From assembly GCA_029001845.1 (NCBI GenBank), contig JAREWP010000014.1:1-45611 (forward strand): 45,611 bases of DNA. The letters are read 5' to 3'. Origin of the DNA: Candidatus Magnetocorallium paracelense (GTDB lineage Bacteria > Nitrospirota > Thermodesulfovibrionia > Thermodesulfovibrionales > Magnetobacteriaceae). Positions 12,326 through 45,611 of this stretch are shown one piece after another (position 1 is the stretch's first letter; each line of letters opens with the position of its first letter). The notes beneath the pieces were generated by a model, which was not told the DNA's origin, made no database searches, and was given only the letters and a program-made list of their open reading frames with translations. The translations under genes were made by a program, and so were the position numbers.

Positions 12326-12332
12326 GATGATT

Positions 12333-12389
12333 CAATACCATTAACTTAAGGACCTTCCGCCTTCACCGGCTGAACTCGAAGGCGCCGCT
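12333..12389. repeat. family C palindrome, broken half copy
   Basis: CAATACCATTAACTTAAGG starts here, followed by CTTCCGCCTTCACCGGCTGAA and similar core bases shared with the full copies at 38985 and 42511. The right half is missing; ten bases later the A-family element at 12400 starts. Confidence 0.8.
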
Positions 12390-12399
12390 CAGGTACTTG

Positions 12400-12578
12400 G
12401 GGACTCGAAAATTACTAATATACCATAACGCATCCCGTCTTCAGGCCGTATTTGGGTGCGCCTCAATCGCAAAATCCTCAACATAGCGCTGCTATGCCTG
12501 CGGTTTTGCTCAATCGTTGCACCCAAATCCAGCCTAAATCCGGGCGCGATCCAGGTATATTAGTAATTTTCGAGTCCC
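12400..12578. repeat. family A palindromic element, copy A1
   Basis: A 179-bp element with perfect 25-bp terminal inverted repeats (GGGACTCGAAAATTACTAAT... at 12400-12424 and its complement at 12554-12578). Inner arms (ATTTGGGTGC with GCACCCAAAT) surround a core at about 12464-12516 with CATAGCGCTGCTATG in the middle. It ends on the base before the pepA stop codon (12579-12581), so it will be the 3' end of the pepA message. It carries no coding capacity. Confidence 0.9.
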
Positions 12579-15700: not shown

Positions 15701-15747
15701 CAATGACATTAACTTAAGGGGTGAAGCACCTTAAGTTAATGTCATTG
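15701..15747. repeat. family C minimal palindrome
   Basis: Two perfect 19-bp arms (CAATGACATTAACTTAAGG and complement) around a 9-base loop GGTGAAGCA. This is just the outer arms of the full C elements with the core removed. It lies between the stop of the FliL-like gene (15814, minus strand) and the start of speE (15668), so it would form a hairpin in the intergenic RNA. Confidence 0.93.
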
Positions 15748-15813
15748 AGTATTTAAAAAGAAGAAATGTAAGGGGTATTGTATTAAATGAGATGGACGAT
15801 TGTCAAAAACATG

Positions 15814-16278: not shown

Positions 16279-16413
16279 TTTACTCCTAAGGTATTATTGT
16301 GTTTTTTAGTGATATCCGACTTTTAATATGTAACAGAATCATTATGATAATATTCTCGACTGGAAAAGCAGGTTCAACTTTCATGCGTCTATTACGACAG
16401 CGACACTTTATCC

Positions 16414-16564
16414 TAAACAGCAGTCAGCTATCAGCGGTCAGCCTTCAGCTTAAGAAAGAATTGATGTTATGCCAATAATAAGTTTCACCTTACGGGTAAA
16501 TCTGTTTTGAATCATAAAGTGTTTCAATTAAAGAGCTGACAGCTGACAGCTAAATGCTGTTTTA
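16414..16564. repeat. family B element, copy B1
   Basis: A 151-bp element with ends TAAACAGCAGTCAGC and GCTAAATGCTGTTTTA, which are partial inverted repeats, and an inside that includes GATGTTATGCCAATAATAAG and TTCACCTTACGGG. Copy B2 at 18253 has the same orientation; copy B3 at 40626 is reversed. It lies in a 585-bp stretch (16279-16863) with no gene, which also has short echoing words around 16590-16650 (CTTATGTCTTACGCCTG, TTGCCTTATGCC). Confidence 0.9.
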
Positions 16565-16863
16565 GTTATATTAATCACTATTCAGTTATAAGACATCAGG
16601 CATAAAAAATCCAACCTTATGTCTTACGCCTGTTGCCTTATGCCTACCCGGTTCGCTGTATATAACAACGTGTCGATGTCGTAGTAATACTAAAATACCA
16701 TATGTCATGTATATAGTCAATTCGTCTTGTTAAAAAGCGAAGCAATTTGTAACAGGGTATTGCATTTTCAATATAGTTGCATTGTGCAGTTATTTAGTAA
16801 TACAATTTAAGCCAATGGCCCTTTTTTCACCGTGAAAATTTCCTCAGAGGACTTATCTTTCGT

Positions 16864-18195: not shown

Positions 18196-18252
18196 TCTGA
18201 TTGTGAAAACTCATCGTAATAGGTAATAATAAAGAGTTTACAGTTATTAAAC

Positions 18253-18412
18253 TAAGAACAGCAGTCAGCTATCAGCGGTCGGCCTTCAGCTAAGAAAAGA
18301 ATTGATGTTATGCCAATAATAAGCTTCACCTTACGGGTGAATCTGTTTTGAACCATAAAGTGCTGCAATTTAAGAGCTGGCAGCTAATGGCTGACAGCTA
18401 AATGCTGTTTTT
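18253..18412. repeat. family B element, copy B2
   Basis: A 160-bp copy in the same orientation as B1, with AACAGCAGTCAGCTATCAGC at the left, CCAATAATAAGCTTCACC inside and AATGCTGTTTTTAGC at the right. It begins 57 bp after the stop of the zinc-ribbon gene. The following 18430-18530 stretch has near-repeated words (CCGTCAACTGTA, twice). The region 18196-18537 holds no gene. Confidence 0.9.
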
Positions 18413-18537
18413 AGCTTAGATTGACAAGAGTCGATAGAAGAGGGTATTAGCAGTTTAAAGCTGCTCAGGTGTACACATTTTTTACCGTAACCCGTCAACT
18501 GTAAACCGTAAACCGTCAACTGTATAAGGAGATTTGT

Positions 18538-20819: not shown

Positions 20820-21027
20820 TAAGGGTCAAGTCAGCAATAAGTTGTGATTTAAAGGTTACACATTGACATCATTACTGAATCAAGTTCAGCACAGGCTTCG
20901 ATCAAATCTCAATCGCAAAATCCTCAACGTAACTCTGCTACGCCTGCGGTTTTGCTCAATCGGTTTAACCAAATCTAATGCCAATCTGTCACTTTAAATT
21001 TACAACTTATTTCTGACCTGACCCTAA
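20820..21027. repeat. family A palindromic element, copy A2
   Basis: A 208-bp element with 25-bp inverted ends (AAGGGTCAAGTCAGCAATAA... at the left; complement with three changes at the right, ending near 21027). The core at about 20910-20962 matches A1 and A3 except in the apical stem, where CATA/TATG is CGTA/TACG. It lies 33 bp upstream of the 31-aa ribosomal protein gene and 326 bp after the kinase stop. Confidence 0.9.
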
Positions 21028-27967: not shown

Positions 27968-28154
27968 CTAAGGGTTGACTCAAAAATAAATTCGCATTAA
28001 AAGGTGACACCTTCACATCATCTTTGATTGCACTTCAATCGCAAAATCCTCAACATAGCGCTGCTATGCCTGCGGTTTTGCTCATTCAGTGCAACCAAAT
28101 ATAATGCAATTCTGTCTCTTTTAATTACGAATTTATTTTTGAGTCAACCCTTAG
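27968..28154. repeat. family A palindromic element, copy A3
   Basis: A 187-bp element with near-perfect ends CTAAGGGTTGACTCAAAAAT... (27968 on) and complement ending at 28154. The core at about 28036-28087 matches A1 almost exactly, including CATAGCGCTGCTATG. It is separated from the 27733 element by 70 bp. Confidence 0.9.
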
Positions 28155-28207
28155 CGCAAATTTTGATATATCAATCGGAATTGTCATGGAGTTTGTACTA
28201 TTTAAAA

Positions 28208-28245
28208 ACTAAAAACAGCAGTCAGCGGTCATCCTTCAGCTAATG
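28208..28245. repeat. family B element, truncated copy B4
   Basis: Only the left end (AAACAGCAGTCAGCGG, then CCTTCAGCTAA) is present, with the rest of the element missing. It lies 30 bp before the GTG proposed for the nucleotidyltransferase and may carry its upstream signals. Confidence 0.75.
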
Positions 28246-38714: not shown

Positions 38715-38984
38715 GCTTTTCTCCGGTTATCTGATCTCAGGCTTTTGGCTCAGTTGAATCAACTTTAAAAAAAGCTGACAGCTGTTTTTAGGATCAATTT
38801 TTTTTACCGTTATAGTGTAGCATTCTCATAGATCTCTTGTAAAAAAAGAAGCCTAAAACGATTGGTGCTTAATGATTAATCTGCAGGTTCAAGGTAACTC
38901 TTATCGATATGTATACATGACGGATTTGTTCTATGTTGTACAGTTCGGTATGCAGGGAGATGAACGGTGTTGATAAAACACAGG
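38715..38984. other. gene-free stretch upstream of DUF2325
   Basis: No gene is seen. A short AAGCTGACAGCTG word near 38771 resembles the right end of family B. The rest has no recognised structure. Confidence 0.4.
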
Positions 38985-39118
38985 CAATACCATTAACTTA
39001 AGGGGTAAAGCACCATCCGCCTTCATCGGCTAAACTCGAAGGCTCCGCTTCGCTGCGCCTTCTCAAACATGACCCGCTTCCGTCGGAAGGTGCTTCACCC
39101 CTTAAGTTAATGACATTG
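38985..39118. repeat. family C element, copy C2
   Basis: A 134-bp palindromic element: CAATACCATTAACTTAAGGG at the left, complement ending AATGACATTG at the right, with a core that reads CCGCCTTCATCGGC then TCCGCTTCGCTGCGCC then CATGACCCGCTTCCG. It begins 11 bp downstream of the stop of the 39130 gene (minus strand). Compare C3, where the core is inverted. Confidence 0.92.
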
Positions 39119-39129
39119 AAAACACAGGA

Positions 39130-40611
39130 TTAATGGGGGAAATAATAACTGTTCCATAAGTCTGCGTTTAAAGTAATATATCTGTTACTCCTCCAATCAT
39201 ATGCCTGAATGGGAACATTCTCTAAGTTGTTCCAAATGCGATATCCCGAGAGCATTGCGAATACCTCACTATATCTACATGGAATGGGGCGATTTTTTTC
39301 GATGTCAAAGCAAATCAGGGGGGTCCTGCTCTTGTTTGTTTCCTCCAAAAGATACCATAATGACTCCTGCGGCGTTTCCTTAATGCTAAGCCACGGTTTA
39401 AAAGAATGTTTACTTTCATTATCTGTATATTTTATATTCTGCATATATGACCAGGTATGATTTACAGGTATTATCAGGCACAATAGAATTCCGGTATATT
39501 TAATTAATTTCTGCCTTGGATTGTGATGAGTGAAAAAAAGGTAATTAATTGAATACATGGCATATATTGCCGTTAAAATACCTGTACACCTTCTTATACC
39601 GGGCATGCCTTTTAAAGAAAGGTTCGGTATGAATAAGCTTAAAACAAAGAGTAATAGGATAGATAAGAACACTACTCTATTTGTTTTGTTAAGACACCCG
39701 ATAGTTATAAATGTTATGATTGAAGAAATTAAACTAAAATACGATATTGCCGTAGAAAAGTCAGATTGTCTTAATTCATAATAAAAGCTGTAATCAATGC
39801 CCAGCAAATCCTCTATCGTTGTCATAACGCCTCTCCTGATGATGGTGAAATCGAAGCTAACCTGACCTCCTCCACGAAAGAGCCCGGCATTTACATTTGG
39901 ATCGTATAATAACATCTCAGGGTTATTCAGATAGATTATGGAGATTATGAGAGGCAGAAAAAAACCGGACAGACTTGCTAAAACATAGTAGATGATCCAA
40001 TGCAATGACAGATCCTTTTTGTTCTTTATAAACATATATATATAAATTAACAATAATGAGGGTATATACAATACAAATGAAGGATAGGACATGCAAGCAA
40101 GCATTACAATAAACCAGAACAATACAATTTTCACAATATCGGACTGTTGTTGCCGGAATTTTGTTGTGTAAAGTAGAAAAACAGCTATTGGTGTATATTG
40201 CAGATCAATTCCAAAGCTGGTCTGAAGAGTATTAAAAAACAGTAATGTCGGGGACAATCCTATTGTTGAAACAGGCAATAGCGCCATTTTATATCCAATC
40301 AATCTTCTGAAGATTTCCGCCAGGCAAAATAATGACAGGAGATGTAATAAAAGTCGAAAAAATTTCGCTGTAAATAATGTAAAACCGAAAGTTTTATAAA
40401 CTAAAAGAAGCGAACCATACCATCCTATATTACTGGATACACCATCATATATCGATCCCTGATCCAGCCAATAGACATTACGTATCGATTCGGCGACTTC
40501 TTCTCTACGGATTTGGTTTGTTGTCTGTAGTGAATAATATGCCTGAAAAATAAATACTATCAGTAACAAAAACCAATAAAGTCGTTTTCCTGTTACGATT
40601 CCGTTTAACAC
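39130..40611 (-). CDS. polytopic membrane protein, GT-C-like, function unknown
   Basis: A 493-aa integral membrane protein with about nine to ten TM helices over residues 10-385 and a 100-aa soluble C-terminus. The layout (first helix, loop with SNIGWYGSLLLVYKTFGF, many helices, soluble end) is that of GT-C glycosyltransferases or wzy-like polymerases. I see no clear DxD or catalytic Asp pattern. AT-rich composition and Lys/Ile/Asn-rich codons differ from the neighbours; it sits between repeat C2 and repeat B3. Horizontal acquisition is a possibility, not shown. Confidence 0.65.
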   Translation of the reverse strand: MLNGIVTGKRLYWFLLLIVFIFQAYYSLQTTNQIRREEVAESIRNVYWLDQGSIYDGVSSNIGWYGSLLLVYKTFGFTLFTAKFFRLLLHLLSLFCLAEIFRRLIGYKMALLPVSTIGLSPTLLFFNTLQTSFGIDLQYTPIAVFLLYTTKFRQQQSDIVKIVLFWFIVMLACMSYPSFVLYIPSLLLIYIYMFIKNKKDLSLHWIIYYVLASLSGFFLPLIISIIYLNNPEMLLYDPNVNAGLFRGGGQVSFDFTIIRRGVMTTIEDLLGIDYSFYYELRQSDFSTAISYFSLISSIITFITIGCLNKTNRVVFLSILLLFVLSLFIPNLSLKGMPGIRRCTGILTAIYAMYSINYLFFTHHNPRQKLIKYTGILLCLIIPVNHTWSYMQNIKYTDNESKHSFKPWLSIKETPQESLWYLLEETNKSRTPLICFDIEKNRPIPCRYSEVFAMLSGYRIWNNLENVPIQAYDWRSNRYITLNADLWNSYYFPH

Positions 40612-40625
40612 TATTTCCCTTTATC

Positions 40626-40814
40626 TTAAAAACAGCATTTAGCTGTCAGCCATCAACTGTCAGCTTTTTAAATTGCAACACTTACGGTTCTAAATACATT
40701 CATCCGTAAGGTGAAGCTCAATACCATTAACTTAAGGGGTGAAGCTTATTATTGGCATCACATCAATTCTTTCCTTAGCTGAAGGCTGACCGCTGAGAGC
40801 TGACTGCTGTTTTA
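40626..40814. repeat. family B element, copy B3, with nested family C fragment
   Basis: This is the reverse orientation of B1/B2: AAAAACAGCATTTAGCTGTC at the left and TGACTGCTGTTTTAG at the right. In the middle, the stretch CCGTAAGGTGAAGCT is interrupted by CAATACCATTAACTTAAGG followed by GGTGAAGCT and the rest of B (TATTATTGGCATCAC). The C fragment thus sits between direct GGTGAAGCT copies. The element ends 27 bp after the stop of the 40842 kinase. Confidence 0.9.
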
Positions 40815-40841
40815 GGACTAATCCCCGGGCTTTGTTGCAGA

Positions 40842-42404
40842 TTACAGGCGATCCTGAGCAGGGAGGATTACTTTAAATGAGCTTCCCTCATTCATTACTG
40901 TATGAAGTTCTATCTTTCCGTTGTGAGATTCGATTATTTTGTTTGAAATGGACAGCCCTATGCCGGTTCCTTTACCTGGTTTGCTTGTTGTAAAAAAGGG
41001 TTGGAATATTTTATCTTTTATTTCCTCCTTTATACCGTCGCCATTGTCGCAAACCTCTACTACGACACAGGGTTTATTCTCCGGGGAAAGAGTTTCATAG
41101 GTTTTAACGGAAATTTTTTTGTCTTCTTTGCAGCATCTGATGAGAGAATTTTTTGCATTTGTAATAAGATTAAGAAGCACCTGCTCGATCTGTATCTGAT
41201 TAATTATGACATCGGGCAGATTGTCGGACATTACAGCTTCAATTTCGATATCCTGCTTTTTCAAAAGCTGACCTACCAGCTTGAAGGGGCCGGTAACGAC
41301 GGTGTTGATATTCGACGCCATACGAGGCGCTTCTTCCGTATCTCTTGCAAATAATCTCATGTGGTCTATAATATCGGACATCCTCTTTACCTGTTGAAGA
41401 ATATCGTCTACATCCTCCCTGAGTGTCTCACTATCCGGATTTTCACTGTTACAGCCTCTTAATATGGATTGTGTAATAATATGAATACCATATAAAGGCT
41501 GGCTGAGCTCATGCGCTATTCCGGCCGCCATTTCGCCCAGGGCCGAGAGCTTTTCCGATTGTATTAGTTGAGAGGTTGTCTCTTTTAGTTCCCTGTTGGA
41601 TTTTTCCAGGTCCTTTAAAAGCCTGCTCTGCCTCATATCTCTTGCAATAAATACAAAACCCTCAATCTTATCGTTGTCGTCCATCAAGCTTGAAACCAAA
41701 ACGCTTACAGGTATCTCTTTTCCTCCTTTATCAAGGAAAGACATTTCGCTCTCTCCGGCAACGCCGCTCCATATATTCTCGGCGCCGCCTGAATTGTCCA
41801 AAAATCCGGTGCATTCAGAACTCAATACTTGTGACAAAGGAGAGCCCTTCAACTCATTTACACTGGATTGCAACATAGCTGCAGCGGCATCGTTAACGCT
41901 TATAATATTCAATTCCCGATTTACGACGATCAGGGCTTCTGCTATTGATTTTATAATGTTGTCAGTATACTTTTTCGCCTCTTTGAGCTCCTTTTTGGCG
42001 ATAACACGTCTTTTTCTCTCCAGCTCCACTTCGATTGCCCGGTCGATAGACGGGACGAGTCGTTTCAGATTGTCCTTTAAAACATAGTCGGTAGCGCCTG
42101 CTTTAAGTACTTCTATCGCCTTCTCCTCTCCAATTGATCCGGAAACAAAAATAAAAGGTATTTCGGGCCTGATTCGACGTGAGATCGTCAGGGCGGAAAT
42201 ACCGTCAAAATCAGGGAGATTATAGTCGGCAAGTATGATATCGAAGTTATCCTTTTTCAGGATGTTAGTGAACTCATTTTCCGAAACGACGTGAATTATA
42301 GTACAATCCCTTCCTTCATCGTCTAAGGTAAATTTTATTATCTCGGTGTCGTCGGGATCGTCTTCAAGGTGAAGTATTCTTAAATTCTTTCCCTCTGTTT
42401 TCAT
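40842..42404 (-). CDS. receiver-PAS histidine kinase (NtrB/HPK4-like)
   Basis: A 520-aa (540 if GTG at 42464 is used) soluble kinase. The receiver (about 5-125 here) has [10 protein letters not shown] and phosphoacceptor Asp60 ([12 protein letters not shown]), and a PAS domain follows (about 145-260) with the linker [19 protein letters not shown]. The kinase core has [10 protein letters not shown] with His298, [23 protein letters not shown] and [10 protein letters not shown] prefer the ATG at 42404 because it starts just before the receiver and is preceded by GAGAGCGAG, whereas the GTG has no ribosome site. It stands alone between repeats B3 and C3. The H-box differs from the AHQWRQPLN of the other two kinases. 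Confidence 0.88.
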
Positions 42405-42510
42405 CTCGCTCTCATAAACAGCTTCGTTTGATAGATTACACTCCCAAAGTGTATTGAGAGTCACTTTGATATTGTCTTCAATGCCCTCTGTAAGGTTGTT
42501 GGATACATTT

Positions 42511-42642
42511 CAATACCATTAACTTAAGGGGTGAAGCACCTTCCGACGTAAGCGGGTCATGTTTGAGAAGGCGCAGCGAAGCGGAGCCTTCGAGTTTAGC
42601 CGCTGAAGGCGGAAGGTGCTTCACCCCTTAAGTTAATGACAT
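42511..42642. repeat. family C element, copy C3
   Basis: A 132-bp palindrome with ends CAATACCATTAACTTAAGGG and complement ending AATGACAT. Its core is the reverse complement of the C2 core, although the outer asymmetric ends point the same way. It lies 9 bp downstream of the sdhA stop (minus strand). Confidence 0.92.
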
Positions 42643-42651
42643 GGGATACAC

Positions 42652-44394
42652 TTAATATTTCCTTTCTACAGGCTCGAATCTGCCGGCGGAAAGGGGTTTA
42701 TATCTCAGGTCAATCCTTTTTTCGCTCTTAAAGGCAAATGTATGTGTGAGCCAATCCAAGTCATTGCGATCGGGAAAATCCTCTCTGTAATGGGCTCCCC
42801 TGCTCTCTCTTCTGTGCAATGCGCTGACAGCGAGGGCTTCCGAAATATCCAGCATATTTCCGAGCTCTATGGCTTCTGTCAGCTCGGTATTAAATATCTT
42901 ACCCTTATCCGTTATTTGGATCCTTTCATATCTCTCTTTAAGAACCTTTAGAAGGTTCACTGCCTCCCAAAGCCCCTGTTCTGTTCTGAAAACGGAGCAG
43001 TTATTCATCATAACTTCCTTAAGGTCTATAGCTATAAGGTTAACCGAGTCTCCCCCTTTGCTTCCTTTCAGGCCGCTAATGCGGTTTAATGCAATATCTG
43101 CATGAAGATCGAAGCTCTTTTGGCAGGATTCAAAATCAATGGATTTCATCTGTTTAACCATCGCCTTACCGGCCCTCCTTCCGAAGACAACTGTATCGAG
43201 GAGAGAATTGCACCCAAGGCGATTCGCACCGTGTACCGATACGCAGGCGCATTCGCCCGCTGCATAGAGTCCATCGATTATATCACCGGTTTCGCTTCTT
43301 AATACCCTTCCGTCAATATCTACGGGAATGCCTCCCATGGCGTAATGAGCAGTGGGCTGTACAGGAACGGGATTTTCCACAGGATCGATCCCCATATAGA
43401 GTCTTACAAAGGAAGATATTTCAGGGAGCCTTGTTTCGACGATTTTTCTGCCAATCCCTGTCAGGTCGAGATAAACATAGTCTTTTCCGTTAATTCCCCT
43501 GCCTGCTTTTATCTCCGACAATATTGCTCTTGAAACCATATCCCTCGGGGCCAGGTCCTTTATGGCAGGTGCGTAGGTTTCCATAAACCTTTCACCTTTA
43601 TCGTTAATCAATATTCCGCCCTCTCCTCTGGCGCCCTCTGTAAGCAGTATGCCAAGCCCGGAAAGACCGGTGGGATGAAACTGGAAAAACTCCATATCCT
43701 CCAGAGGCACACCTGCATTAAACAACATGGCGATGCAGTCTCCTGTTCCGGCGTAGGCGTTTGAAGTTGTCTTAAATATTCTGCCATATCCTCCGGAGGC
43801 CGTCATTACGGCCTTTGCCTTAAAAAGATGGAGCTCGCCGGTATGGATCGAAATCGATACAACACCGCAACAGACGTTATTTTCGATAATAAAGGAGAGA
43901 ACATAAAACTCCGAAAAAAAATCCACTCCTCTGCGCATGCACTGCTCGTAAATCGCATGGAGCATGACATGGCCTGTCCTGTCTGCAGAATAGCAGGCTC
44001 TTCTTACAGGCGCTTTGCCGAAATCTCTTGTATGACCTCCGAAGTTTCTTTGTGCAATGCGCCCCTTAGGGGTCCTTGAAAAGGGGACGCCCATATGTTC
44101 GAGTTCAATGACGGTTCTTATGGCATCTTCAGTCATTACCTCTATGGCGTCCTGATCTCCGAGAAAGTCGCTTCCCTTTACCGTGTCGAACATATGCCAT
44201 TCAGGGCTGTCATCTTCTTCGTTTCCAAGGGCCGCCGCAATACCGCCCTGAGCGGCCGATGAATGGGAGCGTGTGGGGTAGAGTTTGGTAAGCACCGCTG
44301 TCTTCAGCTCTCCAGAAACCTCCAAAGCCGCTCTGGACCCGGCCAGTCCTGCGCCTACTATCAGGATATCGTATGTGTGAGTGATATAATTCAT
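42652..44394 (-). CDS. sdhA: succinate dehydrogenase/fumarate reductase flavoprotein subunit
   Basis: A 580-aa flavoprotein subunit. The Rossmann site is [10 protein letters not shown] (14-23); covalent FAD attaches to His44 in [11 protein letters not shown]; catalytic motifs include [14 protein letters not shown] with the active Arg, [10 protein letters not shown] and [14 protein letters not shown]. The C-terminal domain ends with [17 protein letters not shown]. It would oxidise succinate or reduce fumarate. sdhB, sdhC and sdhD are not next to it: downstream is repeat C3 and upstream 258 bp of unrelated sequence. Direction of the reaction cannot be told. Confidence 0.95.
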
Positions 44395-44582: not shown

Positions 44583-45041
44583 TTATAAGTAATATCTCAG
44601 GTATTTAGATGAAGACTGAAGGCTGAAGGAAAAAAGTAAATGACTTGGGAGTTTAGCCGCTGAAGGCGGAAGGAGATCGTCTTTGGTTTTACTCTTTTTC
44701 TTAAGACATGTAGGACACACATACATAGTAATCCCCTTTTGCCTTAAGATTTCGATATACTCCTTTGCTGTTTTATCAAAAGCCATGCATTTGATTTCGT
44801 CTGTGTTTTTCAAAACAGCTTCCACTCCGTTGATGTCAAAATAGAGAAGCACATCCTTATCCTCGGACATGATATTCGCCATTTTCAGAGCCATCAAAAT
44901 TTTAGGCGGCGCCTCATCTCCTGATGAAACATGGATAAAAACACCGTCCTTTGTCTGTCCCATGACGTCACTTTGTAAAGGAATAAGAAACAGTGAAAGC
45001 ATCATGGCAAGTACAATGAAAGACCATCTTCCTGTTTTCAT
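44583..45041 (-). CDS. exported DsrE-like protein with repeat-derived C-terminus
   Basis: A 152-aa frame: signal peptide (1-28), then a DsrE-like domain with GVFIHVSSGDEAPPKILMALKMA, VLLYFDINGVEAVLKNT and CPTCLKKKSKTKDDL with a Cys-x-x-Cys. The last 30 residues (from PPSAAKLPSH) come from DNA that matches family C and its neighbouring words (GTTTAGCCGCTGAAGGCGGAAGG near 44652, and GACTGAAGGCTGAAGG near 44613). Intact relatives usually continue for about 30 more residues. So the gene was cut by a repeat and is probably not fully native. A plain AAGGAG precedes the ATG. Confidence 0.7.
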   Translation of the reverse strand: MKTGRWSFIVLAMMLSLFLIPLQSDVMGQTKDGVFIHVSSGDEAPPKILMALKMANIMSEDKDVLLYFDINGVEAVLKNTDEIKCMAFDKTAKEYIEILRQKGITMYVCPTCLKKKSKTKDDLLPPSAAKLPSHLLFSFSLQSSSKYLRYYL

Positions 45042-45230
45042 ATGCGAAATCTCCTTATTTTAGAAAATTAACAGACCGCATGATCTGTTGGAATTTTATT
45101 CCCGCTACCATCGGTGAATGTTTTATGTGATGTTATCAAGGGATCAAAGGGCCTATTTGAATTTCTGTCAAAAAATCAGTGCAAAACGGCAATAAAGTAG
45201 ATATAACTGATTGCAAACATGTAATTATCT

Positions 45231-45327
45231 TAGAAACAGCAGTCAGCCTTCAGGTAAGGGGAAACGATATTGCGCCAAAATAAGCATCACCTAAAGAGTG
45301 AAAGAGTTTTAAACGGCATAGAAGTGA
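45231..45327. repeat. family B element, degenerate copy B5
   Basis: The left half of family B (TAGAAACAGCAGTCAGCC, CCAAAATAAGCATCACC) can be followed with many changes for about 95 bp, then the match fades 30 bp before the right terminal repeat. It may be a decayed copy truncated by the terminal repeat. Confidence 0.6.
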
Positions 45328-45357: not shown

Positions 45358-45611
45358 CTAAGTACAGGACAAAAAAATTCATGAGAAATAGTATCATAAA
45401 GGCACTTGGTACTATCTGTATTGGTTATTTATACTGGATTGTTAACTTAAAAAGCCTTATAATATCTGATAAACAGAATGTCGCATAAAAATAAGCAAAC
45501 TTTTTCCCATCTTGCAATAACAACTGCACAATATATTTTAGAAAAGGCGTCTCCCTTGTTCATGATATAATTTATCCTGCTGTTATTTGATTATAAACAA
45601 CCATTAAGTAC
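45358..45611. repeat. 254-bp terminal inverted repeat, right copy
   Basis: Exact reverse complement of 1-254, beginning CTAAGTACAGG and ending CCATTAAGTAC at the last base of the window. An open frame entering it from 45270 continues for 42 codons inside it. The inner flank is different from that of the left copy (TTCAAAG here versus ATGTCTGA there), so the repeat boundary is sharp. Confidence 0.95.

Follow-up and report, generated by a model that had tools for sequence, protein, structure and literature searches.

Two neighboring copies of a short repeat, C2 and C3, share their outer ends and carry their cores in opposite orientation, raising the question of whether the core of this repeat family (family C) flips in place. 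Both lie in a single 45,611-nucleotide contig, analyzed over its full length and referred to here as the window, of the 6.0-Mb, 103-contig draft genome of Candidatus Magnetocorallium paracelense. C2 occupies positions 38985-39118 with its core on the plus strand and C3 positions 42511-42643 with its core on the minus strand. Each starts with CAATACCATTAACTTAAGGGG and ends with CCCCTTAAGTTAATGACAT, and the left and right end dinucleotides are identical in the two copies. The interiors are reverse complements of each other, the 131-nt arms at 38991-39121 and 42508-42638 being 95% complementary, as the earlier note had described when it reported the same ends around an inverted core. This likeness is not due to chance, because the same element is found throughout the genome (about 200 cores and 228 arms) and reversed-pattern controls returned zero copies.

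C2 and C3 are full-length copies of a quasi-palindromic, non-autonomous transposon (MITE) of 134 bp. Family C elements are short, repeated and devoid of coding capacity, possess terminal inverted repeats and are roughly 95% identical to each other across about 200 copies. The distance from CATTAAC motif to CATTAAC motif is exactly 122 bp in 140 of the 168 collected arm pairs, which gives the element length of 134 bp once CAAT..ATTG is included. Of 140 full-length copies, 102 show a target duplication, with a fixed length of 10 bp. C2 is flanked by two identical copies of AAAACACAGG (38975-38984 and 39119-39128; 10/10 match) and C3 by GGATACATTT (42501-42510) and GGATACACTT (42644-42653; 9/10). 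The element is predicted to fold into a long hairpin (z of -8.3 as DNA and -9.75 as RNA). Each of the two copies immediately follows the stop codon of a gene on the minus strand (39119-39132 for C2, 42644-42654 for C3), and the hairpin could act there at the transcript 3' end. The flavoprotein of the fumarate reductase/succinate dehydrogenase type adjoining C3 has its nearest named relatives in Nitrospirota (Thermodesulfovibrionales; 63-66% identity). No match to the element was found in 39 relatives searched, none of the same genus, and the viral contigs searched contained no exact match to the arm.

Window repeat comparison revealed further pieces of family C, namely a solo core-right arm (CAATACCATTAACTTAAGGGGTGAAGC; 40719-40745, minus strand) and a 25-bp internal fragment (44649-44673, minus strand). 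A copy with a missing right half, C1 (12333-12389, plus strand), has a CAATAC end fused to core-left interior and an 8-bp deletion in its arm; within 12331-12578 it is followed by another element with 25-bp perfect inverted repeat ends (GGGACTCGAAAATTACTAATATACC). Core-less mini elements of 50 bp consisting only of arms are present at 15701-15750 of the window and around 2294-2328 of locus L011. The former has symmetric ends (CAATGAC/GTCATTG) and probably moved in that form, since it is flanked by a 9/10 target duplication (AATATTTAAA/AGTATTTAAA). Two other dispersed repeat families were observed, one built from units of the CAGCAGTCAGC/CAGCCTTCAGC type, which lie in either orientation (16402-16565, 18243-18413, 28200-28243, 40617-40671 and 45221-45253) and one of three copies (CAATCGCAAAATCCTCAACATAGCGCTGCTATGCCTGCGG; 12439-12528, 20885-20974 and 28011-28100) with 72-86% identity.

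The ends of family C are of the IS4 type (CAATRYCATTAACTTAAGG). Subgroup IS4 is characterized by the terminal pattern -AATR--------WTW---- and direct repeats of 10-13 bp (PMC2266710). Both CAATGTCATTAACTTAAG and CAATACCATTAACTTAAG match this pattern and the 10-bp duplication agrees in length, the difference being that family C has no transposase of its own. A relative from the same family (G015) carries a complete 1459-bp insertion sequence (L289) with ends CAATGTCATTAACTTAAG, which encodes a 437-amino acid transposase matching NF033592 (IS4 family) with 183 bits against a cut-off of 115. An element combining these ends with an IS4-family transposase was thus found in G015 and not in the genome that hosts family C; a search of that assembly with the G015 transposase returned no match, a weak negative given that the genome is a draft. 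The DDE_Tnp_1 transposases of the host genome were rejected as a source, as these ends are absent from them, and an IS231 origin, considered initially, was dropped in favor of subgroup IS4 after comparison of published terminal patterns. These ends also bound short elements, roughly 220-270 bp in length, in G006, a relative that belongs to a different genus of the family; loci L293, L297 and L299 of G006 combine family C-type ends with different interiors, L293 being flanked by a 10 bp duplication (ACTGTATAAT). Judged by these sequence features, family C is a non-autonomous IS4-family transposon, putatively mobilized by a G015-type transposase. Its copies represent a large burst of IS4-type MITEs in a Nitrospirota-like genome that seems to lack the transposase behind it.

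The two ends of family C are near-identical inverted repeats, and the few fixed positions at which they differ give the element a polarity, with CAATGT at the core-left and CAATAC at the core-right end. To survey this linkage, all copies were turned to one core orientation and the left end was compared with the reverse-complemented right end. Strict end dinucleotides in 165 copies were GT/AC in 135, GT/GT in 5, AC/AC in 3 and AC/GT in 2, the remainder being other single variants. Genome-wide end-to-interior patterns gave 141 GT-left against 3 AC-left matches, and 140 AC-right against 8 GT-right matches, 6 of them truly GT. The only element in both lists of reversed patterns is C2, whose core-left end is CAATAC and core-right end CAATGT. 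C3 is canonical, with core-left ATGT and core-right CAATAC, and carries the GGGGTGAAGC type in both arms. Because core and end orientation are normally linked throughout the genome, C3 is the ordinary copy and C2 the exception. The survey of all copies called for earlier therefore returned linked orientation in nearly all of them, with C2 and one other, L088, swapped at both ends. The latter is an old copy and a weak second case: it is diverged, with many differences, has a target duplication of 7/10 and shows mismatches at the arm start.

These results change the reading of the C2/C3 pair. A flip of the core through the arms, as put forward in the earlier note, is still the simplest one-step account of C2, which has kept its own target duplication, but it does not describe the family, in which 135 of 165 copies are canonical. 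The wider implication of a flipping core fails, with 2 of 165 copies swapped and C3 among the canonical ones. Family C is an ordinary MITE family of fixed polarity; the flip seen in C2 is a rare accident that befell this copy and possibly a second, and is not a family trait.

Typing of the arms at diagnostic positions locates the exchange in C2. The ends are swapped at positions 5-6, both arms are of core-right type at 20 and 22, and the element is canonical from 23 inward, so the junctions lie within positions 7-22. L088 is likewise swapped at 5-6, and its two arms are both of core-right type at 20-23. At position 20, core-right type is carried by both arms in 8 of 139 copies, and the two swapped copies are among these, an overlap with a chance probability of about 0.003 in a test that, like the other arm and swap tests, was selected after data inspection. 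At inner diagnostic positions no swap was seen in any well-aligned copy, the one exception being a misaligned copy.

C2 probably arose through a single inversion of its interior in place, mediated by the terminal arms and accompanied by partial arm conversion. After insertion of C2, all sequence between the end dinucleotides would have been turned round once. The exchange may have occurred within arm positions 7-22, either by template switching between the arms during replication or by arm-to-arm recombination, one arm acquiring the type of the other at positions 20 and 22. The hairpin-forming arms would make such accidents likely. As expected for a spacer inversion, the ends of C2 are swapped relative to the core and the flanking target duplication is intact. 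One interior inversion can yield this state; two successive arm-to-arm copying events within one element cannot, because the first erases one of the two types. Against an inversion in place stands the small number of cases, one clear (C2) and one weak (L088). A strictly reciprocal crossover also predicts junctions at the same position in both arms, and C2 can be accommodated only by an additional conversion at 20 and 22, unless its parent carried those variants beforehand.

Ectopic gene conversion is a possible but less probable origin of C2, either through replacement of its interior by an oppositely oriented copy or through donation of the end dinucleotides one at a time by other copies. Potential partners are abundant, the about 200 copies being roughly 95% identical, and donors exist because an A31+T42 subfamily of 18 members includes the C2 interior; however, none of the copies compared comes closer to the C2 interior than 3 differences. 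Single end exchanges do occur, as evidenced by the 5 GT/GT and 3-4 AC/AC copies, but conversion end by end requires two independent rare events, with another copy as donor at least once. Independent end changes are expected to produce only about 0.09-0.2 double swaps (about 0.09 with the swapped copies left out).

An assembly or consensus error, in which short reads unable to order a hairpin repeat of roughly 200 copies left the C2 interior misoriented, is unlikely. Such an error is conceivable for a short, repeated and self-complementary element in a draft assembly of 103 contigs. Both ends of the contig consist of a perfect inverted repeat of 254 bp (1-254 and 45358-45611), perhaps an assembly stop point. 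Yet nearly all other copies were assembled in canonical form, and C2 combines a coherent mosaic of arm types with a perfect target duplication in its flanks. An inversion in place is favored over both ectopic conversion and assembly error on account of the target duplication, the arm types and the precedent of template switching described below.

A programmed or recurrent inversion of the core, as in a phase switch, is highly improbable. The contrast between C2 and C3 taken alone would suggest it, and C2 resembles invertible DNA switches, which combine an invertase with inverted repeats, in the reversal of an asymmetric segment between such repeats. Nevertheless, swapped copies number 1-2 in roughly 140-165 typed, inner diagnostic positions are not swapped outside the one misaligned copy, the segment is too short for a gene, and no invertase was identified among ten window proteins tested. 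Nothing observed points to a programmed or recurrent switch. Finally, a crossover between C2 and C3 inverting the intervening 3.4 kb, conceivable from their inverted orientation at that distance, has a negligible probability and was rejected, since one side of each target duplication would have been exchanged and each copy has kept its own matching pair; the perfect duplication of C2 likewise disfavors a crossover with any other copy.

In addition to the swapped copies, the arms of family C carry possible signs of exchange within single elements. Derived variants common to both arms of one element number 33 compared with 10.6 in shuffles (0 of 1000 shuffles reaching this value), and rarer ones 8 compared with 2.0 (1 of 1000). 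Sharing is found at mirror positions (33) and almost never in shifted registers (0-3). This excess is only suggestive because it is lost for the rarest variants, those with no more than 3 occurrences per arm (1 compared with 0.5, no clear excess), and part of it may reflect subfamily history. We tentatively suggest that, in a bacterial MITE of high copy number, the quasi-palindromic ends might continually exchange sequence within each copy, leading to homogenization and occasional inversion of the whole interior, and that wild bacteria could hold, in their MITE copies, a natural record of template switching. If inversions in place and arm conversions are real, this MITE of about 200 copies would offer a record in which template switches at a single hairpin type can be counted.

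Inverted repeats are reported to undergo template switching that can homogenize the arms as well as invert the spacer (PMC8604942). Long arms are favored in this process, and 9 of the 10 inversions described in yeast involved arms that had been perfect beforehand (PMC8604942). The published yeast spacer inversions involve substitution of only 2-5 bp (PMC8604942), in contrast to the inverted segment of more than 90 bases in C2, and the host repeat is here a bacterial MITE of about 200 copies. What family C shares with the yeast cases (PMC8604942) is the combination of homogenized arms and an inverted spacer, both of its swapped copies possessing homogenized arm positions.
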